Source: a virus. Taken from it: 49,670 bases of DNA. The notes under the pieces are model-generated. The model searched no databases. It saw only the letters and a list, made by a program, of their open reading frames with translations, and was not told the DNA's origin. Every line of letters begins with the position of its first letter. Within the stretch, counting starts at the first letter, position 1. Positions 4,645 to 49,670 of this stretch are shown one piece after another. A program made the position numbers and the translations under genes. Location of the stretch: positions 1 through 49,670 of IMG/VR virus record IMGVR_UViG_3300030099_004235; one strand, 5' to 3'.

Positions 4645-5088
4645 ATGGCTTTAAGTAAAGAAGAAATATTAAAAAAGAAAAAAGAGAGGGCTGCAGCCAA
4701 AAGGCTTATGATAGATAAGCTTAGATTTTGGGTTGGTGTATTTTCTGTGCCTACTATACTTATTATGGCTTGTATGCTTATAGCAGCAGCCTATTATTTA
4801 GGTGAATCACAATTAGCTGTTGTGACTGGACTTATTTCTACTATTACAATAGGTTTAATTAATGTTCTTAATGGAATGGTAGTGCCACCTGCACCTGAAG
4901 ATCCATTGGCTGTTGTAGCTAAAGATCTAGTACATCATTTGCAAGACCAAGCTAATAAAGATATGGAAGTATCTATGGATAGAAATAAAATTAAAATTGG
5001 TGGTAATGGTGTAAAAATGGAGTCACAAACCCCTGAAAGTCCTTTGTGGGGAGATGATAAACCTATAAAAAAAAGAGGTAGAAAGTAA
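4645..5088 (+). CDS. Small membrane protein, holin-like
   Basis: 147 residues. A basic N-terminus (KKKKERAAAKR) is followed by two hydrophobic segments near residues 31-53 and 56-80, then a charged soluble tail ending KKRGRK. It starts 2 bases after the preceding stop and overlaps the next gene by one base (TAATG). Lying upstream of the endolysin with other small membrane peptides, it may be a holin or other lysis-related membrane protein. The long cytoplasmic tail is unusual for a simple holin. Confidence 0.55.
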   Translation: MALSKEEILKKKKERAAAKRLMIDKLRFWVGVFSVPTILIMACMLIAAAYYLGESQLAVVTGLISTITIGLINVLNGMVVPPAPEDPLAVVAKDLVHHLQDQANKDMEVSMDRNKIKIGGNGVKMESQTPESPLWGDDKPIKKRGRK

Positions 5089-5321
5089 TGTTATTTTTAG
5101 GATGGCTTTCATTGGTTAGTTTTACAGTTGGTGTAGGTGAATATTATAATTGTAAATATCCTAGAGTAGATGAAACTTATAGTAGTGAAGGATTTTTTTG
5201 TAACTGGGAAGATAGAGATTTTTATAAAGAAAATGGTAAGTGGATACTTACTCCTATAGACTCTACAGACAACTGTTTTGAAAAACAAGCTAGAAAAAAA
5301 TATTGGGAAAAAAGAAAGTGA
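5088..5321 (+). CDS. Small secreted or membrane-anchored Cys-containing protein
   Basis: 77 residues. It begins with a hydrophobic signal-like stretch (LFLGWLSLVSFTVGVG) followed by a polar domain with three cysteines and a basic C-terminus. The start overlaps the previous stop (TAATG) and the TGA stop overlaps the next gene (GTGA). A spanin-like or periplasmic role is possible from position and signal peptide; no family was recognised. Confidence 0.55.
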   Translation: MLFLGWLSLVSFTVGVGEYYNCKYPRVDETYSSEGFFCNWEDRDFYKENGKWILTPIDSTDNCFEKQARKKYWEKRK

Positions 5322-5428
5322 CTTTACTGATAGTTTTTGTTAAGAGTATTTTTTTAGCTATACCTATATTTTTAATATATATTGCAATAAAAATAAAATG
5401 GAAAGAGTGGTACAATGAAAAGATATAG
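5318..5428 (+). CDS. 36-aa single-pass membrane peptide
   Basis: A GTG start overlaps the preceding TGA stop by four bases (GTGA). The peptide is almost entirely hydrophobic (LLIVFVKSIFLAIPIFLIYI) and ends with a charged tail (KWKEWYNEKI), so it is a single-span inner-membrane peptide. It sits in the lysis cassette and may be a holin, antiholin or inner-membrane spanin-like component. Confidence 0.5.
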   Translation: MTLLIVFVKSIFLAIPIFLIYIAIKIKWKEWYNEKI

Positions 5429-12258: not shown

Positions 12259-13308
12259 ATGAAAAATTTATTTAAAACATTAAAAATAAAAAAATTAGCT
12301 AATGGAGGTCCTATAACACCAGATGACATAAATAATCTTTTCCCAGATGAAGGATTCCAATTTACTCCTTATAGTGGTCAAGATGAAAATTTAAACAATT
12401 TATTAATAGAATTTTTTGGAACAAACTATCAAAAAGCATTTCCTTATTTATCTGAATATGATACTACATCTGAAGAGTTAGCTGGTCTACAAAGACAACA
12501 ATCAGACTTTGAATCAGGCCAACAATTAGATAGAGGTATATCAAGTGCTCAAAGTCAAATAGGATCTAGTTTAGCTAATATGTATGCACAAGGCAGATCA
12601 GGCCAGTCAGGCTTTGGAGGAACCACATTGCCTGATGTAATTAGAAGAAATTTAATGTCAGGATATGGAGATATAAGATCAGGGTTAGAAGAGGATTATC
12701 AAACAGCTTTAACAGATTCAGCATTAGCAGAAGCTACATCTATTCAATCTGCTAGAGATAGATATCAAAGTGATATTACAAGTATGTTAACTGTTTTGCA
12801 AGATATTATAGAATATAGTGAAGAAAGTTGTGAAGATTTAGATGGAAATGATATATGTGATGATGAAGAAAGTTATGGTGGAGGTAATTGTACTGATATA
12901 AGTGGAGCCAGTGTAGATTGTAATAGTGCTGCTGCTTATTATGATTCAGATGGAAACCCTCTTTCTGAAACAGGTGGGGATACAGGTGGCAATACTAATG
13001 CTGATTGTGAAGCATTAGGCATGGAAACAGATGTAAATGGCAATTGTTATATTCCAGTAAATACAGATTACAATCCAGGTAATTGGGGTTCATCTGATGT
13101 TAAATTAAAAAAGAATGTAGTTAAAGTAGGAAAATCTAAATCAGGATTAAATATATATGAGTTTGACTATATTAATAAAAAATATGGTGAAGGTAGATAT
13201 AGAGGTGTTATGGCTCAAGAAGTGCCACATGCAGCTATATTAGACAATAATGGATATTACATGGTAGATTATAATAAAGTAGATGTAAACTTTGAAAGAA
13301 TAGCTTAA
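12259..13308 (+). CDS. Protein with C-terminal S74 intramolecular chaperone
   Basis: 349 residues. The C-terminal 70 residues are a compact Peptidase_S74 domain: WGSSDVKLKKNVVKV at about 275-290 includes the Ser-Asp-Lys-Leu-Lys signature and the Ser/Lys pair for self-cleavage, followed by GLNIYEFDY and YRGVMAQEVP. S74 domains trimerise fibres or spikes and then cut themselves off. The N-terminal part is helical and Gln/Ser-rich, followed by a Cys- and Asp-rich segment at about 190-265 with calcium-loop-like stretches (DLDGNDICDDEE). The likely substrate is its own N-terminal fibre or internal virion part. The end is coupled to the next gene (TAATG). Confidence 0.75.
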   Translation: MKNLFKTLKIKKLANGGPITPDDINNLFPDEGFQFTPYSGQDENLNNLLIEFFGTNYQKAFPYLSEYDTTSEELAGLQRQQSDFESGQQLDRGISSAQSQIGSSLANMYAQGRSGQSGFGGTTLPDVIRRNLMSGYGDIRSGLEEDYQTALTDSALAEATSIQSARDRYQSDITSMLTVLQDIIEYSEESCEDLDGNDICDDEESYGGGNCTDISGASVDCNSAAAYYDSDGNPLSETGGDTGGNTNADCEALGMETDVNGNCYIPVNTDYNPGNWGSSDVKLKKNVVKVGKSKSGLNIYEFDYINKKYGEGRYRGVMAQEVPHAAILDNNGYYMVDYNKVDVNFERIA

Positions 13309-14987
13309 TGAAGAATATGGATCCTATAGCAATGTTTTTAGAATATCAGTTGCCACAAATGGTAGCTAGAGCCAATGAAGCTAAAAAAAATAGACTGCAT
13401 GAGTTAGATGTGTTAGAAAAAAAGGCTAAAATAAATAAAGAATCTCAAGAGTATGCAAGTTTATTAAAGCTATCAACTGATAAAATAAGTAATTTAGATA
13501 CTCAAATAGCTAACAAATCAAAAATTTTAACAGATGCAAATATTGGGTTTAATTTAGCTGACAATATAAATGAACTAGAAAAGACAAGTGGCAAAGATGC
13601 TTTAATGAATGACTATATTAATAAAGTTAATAGCTCAAGAAATACTGACATTGATGAGTATAATAAAGAATTAGACTTAATGGGAGCATTAACTAATGAA
13701 ATAAATTTAAGACAAAGCCAAAATGCTGAATTAGATAAATTGCTTGTTGGGATGCAAACAGGAAGATCAAGGTCTAAAGAAGTAACAGATTTAAATAATG
13801 ATGGCATTAAAAGTATAGCAGACTTTAATTTGTTTTTAGAAAAAATGGAAAATCCATATCAGGTAGGATCAGCAGAACATGCTGGCTTTATTTCAATGGC
13901 ACCTGGTGAAAAAGAAGTTTTAGAATTAAAAAAATCTTTACTAGATATTAAAAAAACAGAAGCAAGTATAAATAAAATAAATATGGAAACAGCTGAAATT
14001 TTTGGAAAAATGGCTTCAGAAACTAATCAGTATGCTGTAGGTAGCAAAAAATATAATGAAGGTGTAACTAGTGAAATAAGAGATTTCTATACTAGATTAG
14101 GTTCAATAGAAAGCACTTTAGGAGGAACAAAAGAAGGTAGAGAATTTTTAAGTCAATATTCTTTTGATTATAGTACTGGCAAGCCTGCTGCTGAAGCTAT
14201 GAACTTAAACACTGAAGAAGGTGTAAAACAATTTTTAAGAAGAAAAAATGATATTGAAAATAATATTATATCTTTAGTTGAATATCACATAGATGAAGAT
14301 TTTTTTATGGCTGAAGCACCTGCTCTTAATAAAAATATTAAAGCTTATAATAATGCATCATCTGTTTCAGGTAATAAACAAAAGTATTTTAATAATATTT
14401 TAAAAGAATTAAGGAAAGAAAGTGTTCAAAATAAGCTTGATTTTGGAGGATCTGAAAAATCAGGAGTTGATTTAATGTTAGTACAAATAGAGCTTTATGA
14501 CAGAATGAATAGTATTAAATCTGATTTAATAAATAAAAATTCTAAAACACAAACAGGGAAAGGTATAGGTGGATTAGGATTAGATTTATCTTCTAAGCCA
14601 ACAATGAATCAAACTGAAGACAATATTGAAGAAAATCAAAGAAAAATAACAAATATATTAGACAACCAATTTGCAAAAAGAAATTTACAAGAGGGAGACA
14701 ATGCTCCTTTAACAGTTTTGTCTAATATAGATTCAAATCCAATGTCAGCAGTTGAAAGCTTAGGGTTTGGTTTGCAAACACCTTTAGAAGTTTCTCAATT
14801 ATTTACAACAAAAGAAGGGCCAAAGCCTGATTTTCCTGTAAAATTTGCACAACAATTTAGAGATCAATCAAGTCCAGTAGATTTACAAGATTTAATTACT
14901 AGTACAAAGTTGCCTAGAATTGGTGAAACTATGGATGAAATGAATAATAGAATTATAAAAGATTTATTATTAGGCCTGCAAGAATAG
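13308..14987 (+). CDS. Helical internal virion-like protein, 559 aa
   Basis: Almost entirely helical and charged, with extended coiled-coil character at about 15-160 and 205-240. There is no membrane segment and no catalytic motif I recognise. It starts in a TAATG overlap and ends (TAG) 9 bases before the 2143-residue gene. In podoviruses, long helical proteins in this place are inner-core or ejection proteins; that role is inferred from position. Confidence 0.5.
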   Translation: MKNMDPIAMFLEYQLPQMVARANEAKKNRLHELDVLEKKAKINKESQEYASLLKLSTDKISNLDTQIANKSKILTDANIGFNLADNINELEKTSGKDALMNDYINKVNSSRNTDIDEYNKELDLMGALTNEINLRQSQNAELDKLLVGMQTGRSRSKEVTDLNNDGIKSIADFNLFLEKMENPYQVGSAEHAGFISMAPGEKEVLELKKSLLDIKKTEASINKINMETAEIFGKMASETNQYAVGSKKYNEGVTSEIRDFYTRLGSIESTLGGTKEGREFLSQYSFDYSTGKPAAEAMNLNTEEGVKQFLRRKNDIENNIISLVEYHIDEDFFMAEAPALNKNIKAYNNASSVSGNKQKYFNNILKELRKESVQNKLDFGGSEKSGVDLMLVQIELYDRMNSIKSDLINKNSKTQTGKGIGGLGLDLSSKPTMNQTEDNIEENQRKITNILDNQFAKRNLQEGDNAPLTVLSNIDSNPMSAVESLGFGLQTPLEVSQLFTTKEGPKPDFPVKFAQQFRDQSSPVDLQDLITSTKLPRIGETMDEMNNRIIKDLLLGLQE

Positions 14988-14996
14988 GACATTTAT

Positions 14997-17900
14997 ATGT
15001 CAAGCTTTACAAGGAATGAATTTGCAAATATAGTAAGGCAAAAATATCCTGATACATATGCATCATATGATGATAATGAATTAGTTGATAAAGTACTTAC
15101 AGATTATCCTGAATATCAACCTTATGTTGAATCTCCAAAACCAGATTTTAACCCAGACTTTTCAGATCATTTAAACAAAACTTGGTTTAATATGAAGTCT
15201 ATGGGTGTAGAAATTCCTCAAGCAGCAATAGGTGTAGCTTCTAGTTTTATGATGCCAGATGATCAAAAGGTTGTAATGGGATGGTCAGAAGGTTTAAGAG
15301 ATTGGTCAAAACAAAAACAAGATGAATGGATAGAAGAAGATCCAGGAATACAAGCTTATCTTCAATGGCAGCAAGATACTCCAATGTCTATTGATAATAT
15401 TTGGAATTTTGATATGATGATGAGAGGTGTAACAGATTTAGCACCATCTGTTGCAGCCATGATGGGGACAGGATTTGGAGCAGGTGCATTTCTTAAAGCA
15501 GCAGGAATGTCAGCAAGAGCAATAGGAATGGGTTCTCAAGCTATGGGAATTACAGCTATGGGTGCAATGGAAGGCTCTGGTGCATATGCTGAAGCTATGC
15601 AATATTTAGTTGATGAAAAAGGTATAGAACCTTATAAAGCTGTAGATACTGCAGCAAATACAGCTATAGCTACAGCTGTTGGTAATGGATTATTGGAATA
15701 TTATGGTATTAATAAATTATTAAAAGTAGCTGGAGTTAAAGAAGGTGCTGAAAAGTTATTAATTCCAAGATTAGCAAATAAATTTATTGACAATGCTATT
15801 GTAACAGGAACTGCAAAAGTTAGTTCTGTAGCTGTAACAGAAGCACTTACAGAGGCAACACAATCTATTAATCAAGAGTTATTAGCTAATGTATATAAAA
15901 AATATGATGGAGATCCTGAAAAAGCCTTTAGTAGTTTTTTAAATGATTTTATAGAATCAGCTGGTTCACCTGAAACAAAAGAAAGTGCTTTATCTGCATT
16001 AGCTGGAACTATTTTAACAGGTGGTGTAGGTGTCTTAGGTGGTGGTATATTAAATGCTGCAAGGTCTAAAAGGTTGCTAAATAATTATAAAGAAAAAGAA
16101 TTAAACAGACAAATAATAGAAGATACAGTTGTAGAAAAAGAAGACAAAACTCCAGCAAGAGATAGAGATGTTGTAAGTATTAGTGAGCTTGTTTATGGAA
16201 ACAAAGGTGTTGCTCAAAATGAAAAGAAAGTTATTGAAAATATTTATGATAATGATGGTGGTACTCCTAAAAGAATTAATTATCATGTAAATAAAATTAT
16301 AAATGAAGGTGTTGATGCATTGCATGGTGTTGATCCTGAGCAGTTTGTTAAAAAAGTAGAAGCTTTTAGAGATGAAACTTTAACTGATGATATATTAAAT
16401 CAATTAAAAGATGTTGTTAAACAAGAAGTATTAACCGATAAAGATATAGAAGCAGATGATGTTATTTTATCTGATATTGAAGGTCAAGGCATAGAAAGTG
16501 CTGAAGTTAATCAAAGTGCTTCAATTGATGAAATTATAAATAATGAAAATGTAGAAGTTGTTAATGAAGAAATAATTGAAATAAAAGATCAAGAAGATTT
16601 AAATGATGTTATAGAACAAAATCCTGATTTAATAGATGATACAGCAGAGCCTGTTCAAGCTAAAGAAGGTACACAGCAACAAGCTAAATTTATTAAAGAT
16701 AAACCTGAAATAAAAGTTGGAGATACAGTTCAATGGACAACAGAAGGTGTAGATCAATTTAAAGTTCCTAGAAAAATTACTGGATTATATGATGGATATG
16801 TAACAGTTGAAGGATCTAAAACTGGTATTCCTATAAATCAAATTTCAAAAATCAAAATTAAAGATAAATCTGGGCAACAGAAACAATTATCTCCTGATGA
16901 AATTAAGTATAATGAAATACAAGCTAGAATAAAAGATATAGACAAGGAGTTAAAAGAAAATAAAGAAATTCAAGATCATTTGAAAAAAGAATATCCAGGT
17001 TTTAAACCTGATGCAAAAAGAAATAGGGAAATAAAAAATTTAAAAGAAGAAAAATCTATATTGCAAGAACAAGCATCTGCAATGGAGGCAGTTTTAGATG
17101 AACGAAAAGCTGAAAGAAAAGTTGAAGATACAGTTGAAAAACCAAAAAAGAAGAAAGTAATAACAGAAAAATTATCAGATTGGGAAAAAGGTGATTCTTG
17201 GGGAATGAGGGCTAGAGCCCAAGCTGTAAAGGCATTAGCTAAAACAGGTTTATTAAATTTAAGAAAAGATTTAGAAGAGCCTAAAGTTGATTATAGATAT
17301 GCTAGAAGCAATATAATTGCAGATAGGTTAGAAGAAAGAGGAATTATTAAGCCTTACCGAGACAAAGATAATAAATATGTAGGAGGCAAATTTGTTATAA
17401 CAGATAAGTTTAAAGGAAAAACTGCTGAAGAAATTTTTCAAGCCACTTTTAAAGATAACGAAATAGTTTATAAGTATCAGCAAGCTAAAAAAGGAGAGTT
17501 ATTATCAGATAATAAAGAGCTATCTGAAAGACTACAAAAAAGATTAGGTAAAAAGTTTAGATATGTAAAAGCCAAAGGACTACAACAAGTATTTGATGAA
17601 GATGGTAGAGAAGTTGCAGGAAGAGCCTTTGGCAATGCTGTAGAATGGTCTAAGGGTAAGGCTACTATAGATACTATACCTCATGAATATGGGCATATAT
17701 ATATTAAAATAATGAAAGATAGTAGATCAGTTAAAGAAGGTATAAAAAGATTTGGTAGTGAAGAAAAGTTAGTGCAATACATGGGTGAGTATTATGCTAA
17801 TAAAATGAAAGATAAAAGTTTAAAATCAAAGTTTAAAACATGGCTTAGAAAATTTAAAAATGAATTAAAAAGATTTTTTAAAGTAGCTATGACTGATAAA

Positions 17901-20900
17901 GAGGTTGCAGATCTTATATCTGAAAGATTCTATAGTTATGAGATGAAAGAATCTGATTTAAAAAGATTAAAGAATGTTAGTAAGCCTGAGTATCAACAGG
18001 TAGATATAGATGAAAAATCTATATTACAAGAAAACTCTGAACAAGCTGATGCAATTAGAGATAATGATGTAGCTATTGATGATACTGAGGTAGATGCAAG
18101 AGAAAGCATACAAAGAGCTATAGATAGAAGTTTAAACTTATTAGGTGTCCCTATTAGCATAAAGGAAAGAAACTCACTATTAAAAGCCATTACTACTAAT
18201 GATTATAATACTTGGTATTCAAATCATGCATTGCCTTTAATACAGTCTAAAAATAATAAATTAAATGTTAAACCTGATAATATTAATTTAAATAATCTTT
18301 ATTCATTTATTGTAAGTCAAGTTTCTACTAATAGAGATGATGAAAATAATGCAATAACAGATGTGTCATTAGTTAAGCATCAAGGCAAATATACATTAAA
18401 GAAAATTAAATCTGAGTCTATGACTTATAGTACAAAGTCTACATCAGGATTCAAGAAAAGTAAAAAACAAAATACTGTAGGATTTATATCTCATAATAAT
18501 GAAGATATATCTAAAGCATTAGAAGATATATTATTTATTAATGATTCAGACTTTTTTGTTCAATCAAATTTTGATAGCAATAATAATCCAGTAGCTAAAA
18601 AATCATATAGCTTTTTAAATTTAGCAGACTTAACTGCTTTAACCAGAAAGACAATAAAACATAAAGGTAAAAATGTTAAAGTTGTACCTTTATTTAGCAG
18701 AGGTGATTCAGGAAAAATTGCATTAGGTGTTATTAATGATAGACATATTAAACTAGCAAGTAATGACAAATCATATAACAATGCATTTAAATCATTTTAT
18801 GATTTAGGATATTTAGGAAAAGGTAAAGAGGCTGAAAAGCTATTACAACAATATCAAACAATAACTAAAAAAGAATTAAGAGAAAATGCATTAGCTACAT
18901 TTGATTATTTAAATAAATTTATACCAGGTTGGATTACTTATGACTTTGCAGAAGTTTTAAAAAGAATTAAAGTTCCACTCACACCTACATTTAGAAGAAC
19001 AGAAACTCCAGATGCAAAAGCTAGATTTATAAATATAAAAGACAGTAAGGGTGATTTAATGTCTAATAGTATTAATTTTAGATTTAATGGTAAAAAAGTT
19101 AATGGTATTAGAAATATTAAAGACTTAGGTAGTACACATATTGGAGACGGAAATACTCTTACAAGTAGAAGCTATGTTAGAAAAATTGCAAAGATATATG
19201 GACTTGATCCTGAGATAGGTAAAATTAAATCTGTTATGTATCATGTTGGAAATCAAATACAGAACAATAAAAGACTACCACTACAAGATGTTGATATGAT
19301 AATGTTAAAGCATCAACATAGTGTACCTGAAGCTGGTCTTGAAATATATGAAGGCAATGAGTTTGTAGCTAAAGTAGATCAAAATGGAGACATGATAGAT
19401 AAGAATGGTCAAGTTATAGATATGATTATGACAAATGATGAAGCTAAAATGGCAAGTGGTCAGTTTAATAATAAAGAGTTTGTTATTCCTGGCTCAGCAT
19501 TTGGTTTAGTAAAAATGTCTACAAAGAAACGAACTAATGTTAAGTTTCCATTACAATGGATGAATCATGTAGTAGATACTGATTTTATCAATAAGCTTGT
19601 AGATCAATATGCTGGACCTAAAAGTAAATCATATGGATTAATCAGAACTTTTATAAATGCAACTAAAAATCCTGAGACTTTAAAAAAGTTTACTAATGTT
19701 CTTGTTAAAGATTATGGCGAAGAAATGAGCCCTGCTTTAAATAAGAATGTTCAAATAGGTGGAGGATTGCATCCACAAAATATAGGTCCATTAGAAATAA
19801 TAGCTAAAGGTAAAATACTTAGCCCTGCATTTAATTTAGCAGGTCAGCCAGGTGCAATATTAGACTTTGCTCCTAATTATGCAGGTGACTTAGATGTAAA
19901 TGAAATAGCTGTAGACAAAGACTTTATTTTAAATAAGATAAAAGGTGCTGGCTTTAATAAAAATACTCCAATAAAAACTATTAATGACTATTTAAAGACT
20001 AAAGATATAAGAGTGCTGGGTTATAGAAGCCCTGTTGCATATTCTGGTGGTTCTAATTATTTAAGAATTAAAAGAGTACATGATGTAAAAGGTACAGTAC
20101 AACTGCATCACAGTATGACTTTTAGAAACATGGAAGGTGACTATGATGGAGATAGTTTTATATTAGTCAATGTTCCAACAGAATTAGATCAAGACTTTAA
20201 AGATTACTTTTCATCTAGAGAGTATCAAAAAAATATACAAGGTCTTGACTTAAAAAAGTATATTAAAAAGAAAAAGATTAATAAAGCTCATCCATTAGAT
20301 AGAAATCAAATAATAGAAGCTATGGTTTATTCTAATACAGCTATTGGTGAAATAGCTAGCACACAAACAGTTTATGGGTTAATGAAAAATAGTATAAATA
20401 GTTTTATAGTTGATGGTGTTAGTTATAGTATAAATGATAAAGTTAATTTTTTTGGTGAAGAAATGAGTGTTGATAGATTGCTTAGAATATATCTTCAAGC
20501 TGCTGTAGACAATCCTAAATTTTTATTATTAAAAGAATGGAAATACAATATAAACAATTTAAGATCAGTTTTATACAAAGAAACTGCTACTGGTGTTCCT
20601 TTGTCATTAAGATTTAAGCAAAGCAAACAAAAAAGAATATTTAGTTTTTCACCTTATAAAGCAATAAATAGTGAAATTTATAAAAAGTACAAAGGTGCTG
20701 TTCAAATAAGGGACATTACAGATGGAGATGCAAGATTAGATGTAGAAGCATTATTAAATGCAAGTGGATTTTATAATGATTTTATTGCAGATAGAAAAAA
20801 ATATTTTGATGATAAAGCAAATATATTAGGTAATTTTAAAGATAATGTAGGTTTATTAGAAGAAGTTGTAACTTTACCTAACAAAATATTTTATAAATAT

Positions 20901-21428
20901 CAGTCTAATATTAATAGTGATTCAAGAGTTACTCCTACAAAATTTACAGTTCATGAATATAAAGCTGCTCACAATCAAGCATTAGACAAATTAAAATATG
21001 ATGATAGGCTTCAAGAACTAAAAGATAAGATGGGTAATAAATTCAATTCTGCATATACATATGCTCAAGCTGTAGTAAAAGCAACAGAGAGTGCTTTAAT
21101 GACTGATAAGTTAAACACAAGACCAATTCAACCTATGAGTTGGGAGGCTAATGAAAAGTTAGTAGACATAAGGGTTAAAGCTTTGCCTGGACAAAAGATT
21201 GCTGGTTTAGAATCTGTTAAAAATGCTAGTAAAGAAGGATTAGAAGTGTTTACATTATCTGTGTTAAAACATACAACTAAGCTTGATCAACTAATACCAT
21301 CTGAATATTTACATCAACCTACAATTAAAAAGTATTATAATGCATTTACTGAACAACTTACAGGAAAGCCAACAGATAAAGAAATGAAAGATTTAGCTTT
21401 AGATCAAACAAAAGAAAGGCTTTGTTAA
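14997..21428 (+). CDS. Giant polyvalent virion protein with RNA polymerase-like and zinc-protease-like domains
   Basis: 2143 residues. In order: a short N-terminal domain (FTRNEFANIVRQKYPDTYA); small-residue-rich hydrophobic segments at about 145-200 and 330-355; an acidic linker (about 470-560); a coiled coil (about 620-720); a zincin motif HEYGH at 896-900; a lysine-rich helical part; a beta-barrel-like region with GDG near 1383-1385; and DYDGD at 1715-1719. The surroundings of DYDGD (QLHH, then GDYDGDSF, then NVP) parallel the beta-prime catalytic loop (QLHP, ADFDGDQM, HVP), whose three aspartates bind the catalytic magnesium. Known single-chain two-barrel enzymes (YonO, crAss-like phage virion polymerase) share this motif type. 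I infer an ejected virion RNA polymerase for early genes. The next gene starts in its stop (TAATG). Confidence 0.7.
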   Translation: MSSFTRNEFANIVRQKYPDTYASYDDNELVDKVLTDYPEYQPYVESPKPDFNPDFSDHLNKTWFNMKSMGVEIPQAAIGVASSFMMPDDQKVVMGWSEGLRDWSKQKQDEWIEEDPGIQAYLQWQQDTPMSIDNIWNFDMMMRGVTDLAPSVAAMMGTGFGAGAFLKAAGMSARAIGMGSQAMGITAMGAMEGSGAYAEAMQYLVDEKGIEPYKAVDTAANTAIATAVGNGLLEYYGINKLLKVAGVKEGAEKLLIPRLANKFIDNAIVTGTAKVSSVAVTEALTEATQSINQELLANVYKKYDGDPEKAFSSFLNDFIESAGSPETKESALSALAGTILTGGVGVLGGGILNAARSKRLLNNYKEKELNRQIIEDTVVEKEDKTPARDRDVVSISELVYGNKGVAQNEKKVIENIYDNDGGTPKRINYHVNKIINEGVDALHGVDPEQFVKKVEAFRDETLTDDILNQLKDVVKQEVLTDKDIEADDVILSDIEGQGIESAEVNQSASIDEIINNENVEVVNEEIIEIKDQEDLNDVIEQNPDLIDDTAEPVQAKEGTQQQAKFIKDKPEIKVGDTVQWTTEGVDQFKVPRKITGLYDGYVTVEGSKTGIPINQISKIKIKDKSGQQKQLSPDEIKYNEIQARIKDIDKELKENKEIQDHLKKEYPGFKPDAKRNREIKNLKEEKSILQEQASAMEAVLDERKAERKVEDTVEKPKKKKVITEKLSDWEKGDSWGMRARAQAVKALAKTGLLNLRKDLEEPKVDYRYARSNIIADRLEERGIIKPYRDKDNKYVGGKFVITDKFKGKTAEEIFQATFKDNEIVYKYQQAKKGELLSDNKELSERLQKRLGKKFRYVKAKGLQQVFDEDGREVAGRAFGNAVEWSKGKATIDTIPHEYGHIYIKIMKDSRSVKEGIKRFGSEEKLVQYMGEYYANKMKDKSLKSKFKTWLRKFKNELKRFFKVAMTDKEVADLISERFYSYEMKESDLKRLKNVSKPEYQQVDIDEKSILQENSEQADAIRDNDVAIDDTEVDARESIQRAIDRSLNLLGVPISIKERNSLLKAITTNDYNTWYSNHALPLIQSKNNKLNVKPDNINLNNLYSFIVSQVSTNRDDENNAITDVSLVKHQGKYTLKKIKSESMTYSTKSTSGFKKSKKQNTVGFISHNNEDISKALEDILFINDSDFFVQSNFDSNNNPVAKKSYSFLNLADLTALTRKTIKHKGKNVKVVPLFSRGDSGKIALGVINDRHIKLASNDKSYNNAFKSFYDLGYLGKGKEAEKLLQQYQTITKKELRENALATFDYLNKFIPGWITYDFAEVLKRIKVPLTPTFRRTETPDAKARFINIKDSKGDLMSNSINFRFNGKKVNGIRNIKDLGSTHIGDGNTLTSRSYVRKIAKIYGLDPEIGKIKSVMYHVGNQIQNNKRLPLQDVDMIMLKHQHSVPEAGLEIYEGNEFVAKVDQNGDMIDKNGQVIDMIMTNDEAKMASGQFNNKEFVIPGSAFGLVKMSTKKRTNVKFPLQWMNHVVDTDFINKLVDQYAGPKSKSYGLIRTFINATKNPETLKKFTNVLVKDYGEEMSPALNKNVQIGGGLHPQNIGPLEIIAKGKILSPAFNLAGQPGAILDFAPNYAGDLDVNEIAVDKDFILNKIKGAGFNKNTPIKTINDYLKTKDIRVLGYRSPVAYSGGSNYLRIKRVHDVKGTVQLHHSMTFRNMEGDYDGDSFILVNVPTELDQDFKDYFSSREYQKNIQGLDLKKYIKKKKINKAHPLDRNQIIEAMVYSNTAIGEIASTQTVYGLMKNSINSFIVDGVSYSINDKVNFFGEEMSVDRLLRIYLQAAVDNPKFLLLKEWKYNINNLRSVLYKETATGVPLSLRFKQSKQKRIFSFSPYKAINSEIYKKYKGAVQIRDITDGDARLDVEALLNASGFYNDFIADRKKYFDDKANILGNFKDNVGLLEEVVTLPNKIFYKYQSNINSDSRVTPTKFTVHEYKAAHNQALDKLKYDDRLQELKDKMGNKFNSAYTYAQAVVKATESALMTDKLNTRPIQPMSWEANEKLVDIRVKALPGQKIAGLESVKNASKEGLEVFTLSVLKHTTKLDQLIPSEYLHQPTIKKYYNAFTEQLTGKPTDKEMKDLALDQTKERLC

Positions 21429-25693: not shown

Positions 25694-25709
25694 ACCCTAA
25701 CACAAAAAG
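25694..25709 (-). promoter_or_regulatory. Copy 5 of repeated intergenic motif
   Basis: On the minus strand CTTTTTGTGTTAGGGT directly follows the stop of the 58-aa gene and precedes the ribosome site of the 88-aa gene. It is the most diverged of five related copies, but it shares the following GTTTAAA...AGGAGAACA context with copy 3. CCTAAC/GTTAGG here can also form a 6-bp hairpin. Confidence 0.4.
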
Positions 25710-31190: not shown

Positions 31191-31206
31191 ACCCAAAAAC
31201 ACAAGG
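31191..31206 (-). promoter_or_regulatory. Copy 4 of repeated intergenic motif
   Basis: Minus-strand CCTTGTGTTTTTGGGT, with AATTTTATACTAAATT downstream, in the gap ahead of the Sak4-like ATPase gene. It would drive or mark the start of the ATPase/SSB/primase block. One mismatch to the consensus of copies 2 and 3. Confidence 0.5.
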
Positions 31207-33388: not shown

Positions 33389-33404
33389 ACCCAAAAACAC
33401 AAAG
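33389..33404 (-). promoter_or_regulatory. Copy 3 of repeated intergenic motif
   Basis: Minus-strand CTTTGTGTTTTTGGGT immediately follows the TAA of the 89-aa gene and is followed by TTAAACAAAG, which can pair with CTTTGT, and then by the AAGGAG of the next gene. The gap is only 37 bases, so the motif fills it. Confidence 0.5.
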
Positions 33405-35921: not shown

Positions 35922-35937
35922 ACCCAAAAACATAAAG
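35922..35937 (-). promoter_or_regulatory. Copy 2 of repeated intergenic motif, overlapping a hairpin
   Basis: Minus-strand CTTTATGTTTTTGGGT lies 4 bases past the stop of the 42-aa membrane peptide. Its GGGT begins a perfect stem, GGGTAGTG with CACTACCC, around a 13-base loop (35906-35926 region and downstream). It stands in the leader of the 118-aa gene. Confidence 0.5.
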
Positions 35938-36125: not shown

Positions 36126-36141
36126 ACCCAAATACAGAAAG
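36126..36141 (-). promoter_or_regulatory. Copy 1 of repeated motif, candidate main leftward promoter
   Basis: Minus-strand CTTTCTGTATTTGGGT followed by ATGTATGTACATAC and ATATATTATTAGG, about 57 bases upstream of the first leftward ATG. TTGGGT and TATTAT are 18 bases apart, so a sigma-70-like reading is also possible. Confidence 0.5.
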
Positions 36142-48752: not shown

Positions 48753-49670
48753 ATGAGATTTGGAATAGGACCAACAATAGCTAAAGCAGCTACTACTATG
48801 AGAACTTTTGGTGTTCAGTTTTTAAAAGATAACCTTAAACTATTCTTTGATTTTCAAAATACAGACCTTGAGCATGTAGGTACAGGTAGTCTTGATTTTG
48901 ATGATGACGATGAACAAGTTGTAAGAACAGGCATAACTAATACTAATTTTGGCAAAGCTATTACTATATCTGCTTGGGTTACATTTGGATCTGCTCAGGG
49001 AAATAGAAAAGGATTATTTGGAAGTAAATATTATGCAAATAACGAATTTTCTATTATACAGCACGACCAAAGTTCTAATGAATTTTATCTGATACTTACA
49101 ACAAAAAATGGTAGTACAGCAACTTTTACTAATGTAGTAGATACAGAAGATAAATGGATTCATTTAACTTTTGTTGTTGATCAAAATATAGGAACTACTA
49201 ATAATTGTAAACTTTATAAAAATGGTGTATTAAGTTCAACGACTCACACTGGTTCTTCAGGAGATATTGAATGTACACAAGAAGTGGCTATAGGAATGAT
49301 TAATTATACTGCTTTTCAAACTACAGGCAATGCATGGGATGGCAAAATAGCTAAAGTAGGATTTTGGACAAGAGCATTAAATGCATCAGAAGTACAAAAT
49401 ATAGTATATAAATCATATTCAGATTTAAAAGGTAGTGAAAAAACACATTTAAGAAATTGGTGGGATTTAGATGATATTAGTAGTACTACAGCACCTGATA
49501 GTCATGGTAGTGACAATGGCACATTACAAGGAACATCATCTACTCCTGCTGTAAAAACTATATATGGTAATGGATGTCCTGTTAAACCTAGAGGTGTAGA
49601 TAATTCTAAAGCAGCATTAGCAGACCAAATAGGTAGTGGTAGTGCAAGTTTTGATGGTGATGATGATTAT
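48753..49670 (+). CDS. LamG adhesin, 5' part (runs off the right end)
   Basis: 306 codons from the ATG at 48753 without a stop before the end of the window; it continues in frame into 137-1264 across the terminal overlap. After a 30-residue leader (FGIGPTIAKAATTMRTFGVQ) comes a LamG domain at about 40-200 (GSLDFDDDDEQVVRTG, KAITISAWVTFG, WIHLTFVVDQN, WDGKIAKVGFWTRALN), then a linker with SEKTHLRNWWDLDD and the start of the second LamG. A sugar-binding tail adhesin is the likely role. Confidence 0.8.
   Translation, partial: MRFGIGPTIAKAATTMRTFGVQFLKDNLKLFFDFQNTDLEHVGTGSLDFDDDDEQVVRTGITNTNFGKAITISAWVTFGSAQGNRKGLFGSKYYANNEFSIIQHDQSSNEFYLILTTKNGSTATFTNVVDTEDKWIHLTFVVDQNIGTTNNCKLYKNGVLSSTTHTGSSGDIECTQEVAIGMINYTAFQTTGNAWDGKIAKVGFWTRALNASEVQNIVYKSYSDLKGSEKTHLRNWWDLDDISSTTAPDSHGSDNGTLQGTSSTPAVKTIYGNGCPVKPRGVDNSKAALADQIGSGSASFDGDDDY
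49535..49670. repeat. Right copy of terminal overlap
   Basis: Matches bases 1-136 with 3 substitutions and no indels. Joining the two gives a molecule of about 49,534 bases with one continuous LamG adhesin gene. Confidence 0.85.

Follow-up and report, generated by a model that had tools for sequence, protein, structure and literature searches.

Two-barrel RNA polymerases that are carried in the virion are established in the crAss-like phages of about 100 kb, in jumbo phages and in phage P23-45. The virion RNA polymerase (vRNAP) of crAss-like phages is a component of the particle that is delivered together with the DNA and transcribes the early genes (PMC7886860), and a model for the storage and ejection of the crAss cargo has also been described (PMC10172136). 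In the Thermus phage P23-45, the virion RNA polymerase (RNAP) is fused to the tape measure protein (PMC10770324). The present work concerns a virus record of 49,670 bases (IMG/VR record IMGVR_UViG_3300030099_004235; the whole of this stretch is referred to here as the window), which encodes a giant late protein of 2143 amino acids (aa) with a polymerase-like region in its C-terminal half. The most likely interpretation of this protein is that it is a divergent, single-chain, two-barrel RNAP, related to the injected enzyme of the crAss-like phages, that is borne in the virion.

Conservation and predicted fold of the polymerase region

The RSP (residues 1677–1679), GGSNYLRIK (1684–1692), QLHH (1702–1705), GDYDGDSF (1714–1721, with DYDGD at 1715–1719), NVP (1725–1727) and GDG (1383–1385) segments of the giant protein all lie at the residues that were given in a preliminary description of this DNA. 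In a core alignment of 24 members of this protein family (A13), the three aspartates of the DxDxD motif (D1715, D1717, and D1719) form the sole invariant columns and are present in 24/24 members. P1679 is a proline in all 23 members covering this position and R1677 is an arginine in 20 of 23. Two lysines, K1411 and K1484, are also kept in every member that covers them, and the equivalent of K1438 is less uniform. Based upon the alignment with the crAss vRNAP, K1411 and K1484 appear to be the lysines of the beta-like barrel. The aspartates and these two lysines are retained by the members at about 15–20% identity.

The preliminary description had likened QLHH, GDYDGDSF, and NVP to the motifs of the cellular beta-prime subunit and regarded the GDG region as a possible second barrel. 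The likeness to beta-prime stands for the invariant DxDxD motif, but not for NVP, which is replaced by SMP, LGD and other sequences in the relatives; its match is coincidental and it was dropped as a diagnostic motif. At position 1704 most members have N, and the window has H. The beta-like double-psi beta barrel (DPBB-B) is predicted to span residues ~1384–1510. GDG itself is no known catalytic motif. It is located shortly before the invariant lysine of the first barrel, with D1384–G1385 kept solely within the window's own subgroup, and it was likewise dropped. Two subgroups are distinguished by their catalytic loops, one with DxDGD, which includes the window, and the other with DYDID, DFDLD and similar sequences, and two members (L164 and L165) are intermediate between them. 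A profile–profile comparison joins these subgroups around the catalytic barrel (probability 95, E 2.5e-8).

Searches of Pfam, PHROG and PDB with the single sequence of the giant protein gave nothing informative, the only match being to DUF2606 of Pfam, below threshold. With a family profile (A10), the top PDB matches were to the beta-prime subunit of the non-virion RNAP of phage AR9 (E 5e-4), with R-x-P and GDYDGD as the aligned segments, and the PHROG 2987 family, "RNA polymerase beta subunit", was matched by two of nine members (best E 0.003). The vRNAP of the crAss-like phage phi14:2 (2180 aa) and eight of its homologues possess R-x-P followed by DFDID, DFDVD, DLDVD, or DYDID, and in hhalign comparisons with the crAss vRNAP all three of our family profiles landed on the R-x-P/DxDxD motif. 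For subgroup 2, 371 columns were aligned, with both barrels among them (E 5.8e-5). The scores in these comparisons were 46–56; column-shuffled controls reached no more than 20.5 and reversed controls no more than 20.4.

The comparison of an AlphaFold model with crAss virion polymerase, which the preliminary description had proposed, succeeded for a relative but not for the window itself, whose core was modeled poorly. The AlphaFold2 model of the core of the relative L117, based upon a 24-row alignment, had a predicted local distance difference test (pLDDT) score of 77 and a predicted template modeling score of 0.76. Its best Foldseek match in PDB was 6VR4, the phi14:2 virion RNAP (E 2.1e-9, probability 1.00), followed by QDE-1 and the RDR2 proteins of maize and Arabidopsis (E 2e-7 to 7e-5) and by the largest subunits of RNAP I/II; all 20 matches at E ≤ 1e-3 were two-barrel RNAPs. 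The BFVD database holds a separate, independent model of this L117 protein, which superposed on ours with a template modeling score (TM-score) of 0.92, and crAss RNAPs came next. By overall similarity, the modeled L117 protein thus has the architecture of a two-barrel RNAP, and its model contains a predicted bridge helix after the catalytic barrel (helix 551–588, aligned with residues 1768–1806 of the window protein). The family-wide retention of the catalytic residues, the profile matches to AR9 beta-prime and crAss vRNAP, and the similarity of the L117 model to 6VR4 support the two-barrel polymerase proposed earlier, and the window protein is predicted to synthesize RNA.

Candidate early promoters and the proposed use of the polymerase

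The giant gene is located in the late block on the plus strand, 3' of genes for tail-type proteins and a peptidase-S74 protein. The terminase, a P22-type portal and an SU10-type major capsid protein (the latter two recognized by Pfam) are also encoded on this strand. The replication block is encoded on the opposite strand and includes a DnaB-type helicase that has a primase-like N terminus, Sak4, and Gp157/Gam-like, DUF932, HNH, and PDDEXK proteins. With up to three mismatches, the 16-nt sequence CTTTGTGTTTTTGGGT is found at five sites in the window, all of them on the early strand, where 0.72 would be expected and none of 100 shuffles reach five. These sites stand 5' of Shine-Dalgarno-like sequences and start codons of early genes. 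A matrix made from the five window cores had its top four matches in a relative (G052) at intergenic positions on the early strand with the same flanking genes, and none of 100 shuffles gave four such syntenic sites. Sigma-70-like sites in the early block were no commoner than in shuffles. We regard the 16-nt motif as a candidate cognate promoter of the phage polymerase; templates that contain it would allow the purified enzyme to be tested directly.

A single explanation joining these observations, which we consider highly probable, is that the C-terminal polymerase is made late, packaged and ejected, and that it transcribes the early block from phage promoters. The polymerase would be packaged alongside the neighboring giant proteins, would be ejected with the genome into the next cell, and would there transcribe the early/replication block of the opposite strand, using phage-specific promoters with a core of about TGTTTTTGGGT. 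Packaging and ejection are suggested by the position of the gene in the late structural operon and by the precedents of the crAss-like phages and P23-45. A polymerase that is made late would have to enter the next cell with the virion, because it would otherwise be useless to the early block.

A number of results weigh against this explanation. The AlphaFold2 model of the window core, based upon a nine-row alignment, was poor (pLDDT 42); Foldseek found no significant match with it and it was excluded from the evidence. Because the window's own sequence was modeled poorly, its predicted two-barrel fold rests on homology to the aligned relatives. The TM-scores of the L117 model to solved single-chain polymerases are low (0.24–0.33), as expected for partial matches between divergent enzymes. 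The broad A13 profile finds no RNAP in PDB by sequence, and the sequence evidence for RNAP identity, taken alone, is hence moderate. The window's subgroup is joined to the modeled one with significance mainly in the region of the active-site barrel. The protein encoded downstream of the giant gene has no detectable similarity to gp076, gp078, or gp079 of phi14:2. Lastly, the promoter motif was picked post hoc, after inspection, it was not found in the distant relative G001, and it was not singled out by an exhaustive de novo 14-mer search of the window and G001, whose results were not convincingly above those from shuffles.

If the DYDGD sequence had arisen by chance or by convergence, as an acidic loop of a giant structural protein that has no relation to polymerases, the absence of significant PDB or PHROGs matches for the single sequence, with only DUF2606 found below threshold in Pfam, would be readily understood; such an origin is scarcely credible, as it is already contradicted by the family alignment, by the controls for the profile comparisons and by the structural similarity to 6VR4, QDE-1, and RDR2. 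Another possibility is that the polymerase fold has been kept in a catalytically dead structural or ejection protein, in accord with its extreme divergence and the replacement of the G of DxDGD in many relatives. However, the three aspartates and two lysines are retained throughout this divergence, and the crAss vRNAPs too have DFDID or DFDVD in place of DxDGD, which makes loss of activity very unlikely. It is also unlikely, although less so, that an active two-barrel polymerase serves the late genes of the producing cell, or makes RNA primers for replication, without being injected. The observation that neither a DNA polymerase nor a second RNAP was recognized among the window open reading frames (ORFs) scanned would suit this role, but the enzyme forms one chain with an N-terminal region that exceeds 1000 residues and is encoded amid giant proteins of the late structural operon, like the crAss virion RNAPs, and an enzyme of the late block would not be available in time to switch on the early block.

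Relatives and comparison with known polymerases

Relatives of the giant protein were found in IMG/VR at 99%, 77%, and about 44–47% identity, together with a very distant relative (L018), a protein of 2704 aa that retains GDFDGD and AVDNPK. Three parts of the protein, the N-terminal one, that around HEYGH and the polymerase core, show the highest identity between the window and the relative L005. The terminase is conserved far better than the giant protein (57% between the window and the phage of L018), and a terminase-guided walk through IMG/VR yielded more than 480 terminase relatives, of which 80 were kept. Of these terminase-sharing records, 37 longer ones were searched with the A10 and A11 profiles, and the polymerase region was present in 15 of the 15 searched records of at least 38 kb; the shorter records without it are fragments. 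An iterative profile search brought in a further member (L107, E 6e-108). In the relatives, the giant ORF usually has 2.8–3.3 thousand residues, and where the region was read it is followed by an ORF of ~800–1300 aa. The genomes are mostly 39–58 kb, which supports the earlier suggestion that such polymerases extend to phages of ~50 kb. One IMG/VR record (G025, 104,488 bases), about double the usual size, shares both the terminase and a giant polymerase-like protein. Among 50,697 phage records, tblastn with the giant protein gave a single unannotated record, matched in its HEYGH region only, and tblastn with the core of a relative gave no match; one scan of genome contigs found no relative, and no description of this phage lineage was found among the papers searched.

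The vRNAPs of phi14:2 (KC821624, AGO48955) and other Crassvirales resemble the window protein in being single chains with barrel B followed by barrel A and R-x-P before DxDxD, and in being giant late proteins in a run of large structural genes; their DxDID variant is common to most of the window's relatives. In contrast, the window has DYDGD, an HEYGH sequence in its N-terminal half and a genome of ~50 kb rather than ~100 kb. No crAss-like phage is present among the terminase matches listed, where the nearest named phages are Zobellviridae at about 25% identity, and the portal gave one weak match, which was not to a crAss-like phage. Because the terminase, portal and neighboring giant proteins show no detectable crAss likeness, the window phage was not placed in Crassvirales. 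Membership in Zobellviridae was also rejected, as DxDxD is lacking from the internal virion proteins of the phages ICP2, CRP-5, and MEP401. A homologue of the crAss-type RNAP is found in Flavobacterium phage Fpv1 (NC_031914, locus L173; 89 kb), where a virion structural protein of 4.4 thousand residues contains R-x-P followed by DYDID, yet the taxonomy line of this phage does not include the crAss order; a crAss-type RNAP beyond Crassvirales therefore has a precedent. Public records such as MT774375 (cr50_1) and NC_055891 (cr60_1) label homologues of the crAss RNAP as "DNA helicase", "nuclear pore complex protein-like", or "DUF1768", which are probably misannotations.

In gp96 of P23-45, a two-barrel RNAP of the virion is likewise joined to a giant virion protein (PMC10770324), but this phage is long-tailed, its RNAP forms the N-terminal portion of the tape measure protein and it has a second, non-virion RNAP, whereas the RNAP of the window is C-terminal. 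P23-45 gp96 is absent from the Foldseek matches listed. QDE-1 and plant RDR2 share the single-chain two-barrel architecture, but they are eukaryotic, have RNA-templated roles and show about 9–14% identity. The AR9 beta-prime subunit (7S00/7S01), which is the top PDB profile match at the catalytic barrel, belongs to a multisubunit enzyme of a jumbo phage.

Self-transcribing phages would thus be spread more widely than the known ~100-kb crAss group, and the presence of the domain in every longer record examined of an unrelated lineage of half that size suggests that the use of an injected enzyme for early transcription, without dependence on the host, is much commoner. We are inclined, by a modest degree, to view these phages as a large lineage of small (~40–58 kb) tailed phages without cultured members, sampled here via several hundred related terminases, that is built upon an injected, single-chain RNAP that evolves fast and has its own early promoters; the virion-polymerase strategy would then be older or more mobile than Crassvirales. 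Because single-sequence searches fail, such polymerases appear to be missed by the public databases.

Genome setting and other parts of the giant protein

The ORFs at positions 1–1264 and 48753–49670 run off the ends of the record and are out of frame when these ends are joined, on account of which the record is probably slightly incomplete, with a short stretch missing. The features of the window are listed in Table 1.

Table 1. Coordinates of the giant protein, its predicted parts, candidate promoters and adjacent genes in the window.
Feature	Position	Strand	Basis
Giant late protein, 2143 aa from ATG; polymerase-like region in C-terminal half	14997–21428	+	ORF list and translation
Gly/Ala-rich N-terminal segment, composition possibly ejection-protein-like	15414–16076	+	Sequence
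HEYGH (896–900), zinc-metallopeptidase-like motif, putative function, N-terminal half	17682–17696	+	Motif, kept in relatives
Predicted two-barrel RNAP core, aa 1265–1985	18789–20951	+	Extent aligned in A13
Predicted DPBB-B (beta-like barrel), aa ~1384–1510, with K1411, K1438, K1484	19146–19526	+	A13 mapping onto strands of relative's model; boundaries approximate
Predicted DPBB-A (beta-prime-like barrel), aa ~1595–1735	19779–20201	+	Boundaries approximate
R-S-P (1677–1679), counterpart of R-x-P preceding catalytic loop	20025–20033	+	Alignment
DYDGD (1715–1719), predicted Mg2+-binding aspartate triad	20139–20153	+	Invariant in 24/24 relatives
Predicted bridge helix, aa ~1768–1806	20298–20414	+	Aligns to 38-residue helix 551–588 in relative's model
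LQAAVDNPK (1833–1841), highly conserved, 3' of bridge helix	20493–20519	+	Conservation
Candidate phage promoter motif CTTTCTGTATTTGGGT	36126–36141	-	Motif search
Candidate phage promoter motif CTTTATGTTTTTGGGT	35922–35937	-	Motif search and matrix
Candidate phage promoter motif CTTTGTGTTTTTGGGT	33389–33404	-	Motif search and matrix
Candidate phage promoter motif CCTTGTGTTTTTGGGT	31191–31206	-	Motif search and matrix
Candidate phage promoter motif CTTTTTGTGTTAGGGT	25694–25709	-	Motif search and matrix
Upstream late protein, 559 aa, same operon	13308–14987	+	ORF list
Giant protein of 1159 aa on the downstream side, with an uncertain start codon	21422–24901	+	ORF list

The LQAAVDNPK sequence is probably the trigger-loop region of the giant protein. 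The HEYGH motif is kept as HEYGH, HEFFH, or HEFAH in several relatives, and no Pfam family matched this region of the window protein. In the giant protein of the relative L104, the polymerase region is preceded by a GHKL-type ATPase domain (PF13589; residues ~1340–1430) and by a weak match to a WLM metallopeptidase (~1852–1960) that covers HEFAH. The 2704-aa protein of L018 contains an AlkB-like 2OG-Fe(II) oxygenase domain (PF13532, E 2e-12) at residues ~998–1127 (positions 4999–5388 of that record), which suggests that the injected cargo may include nucleic-acid repair.

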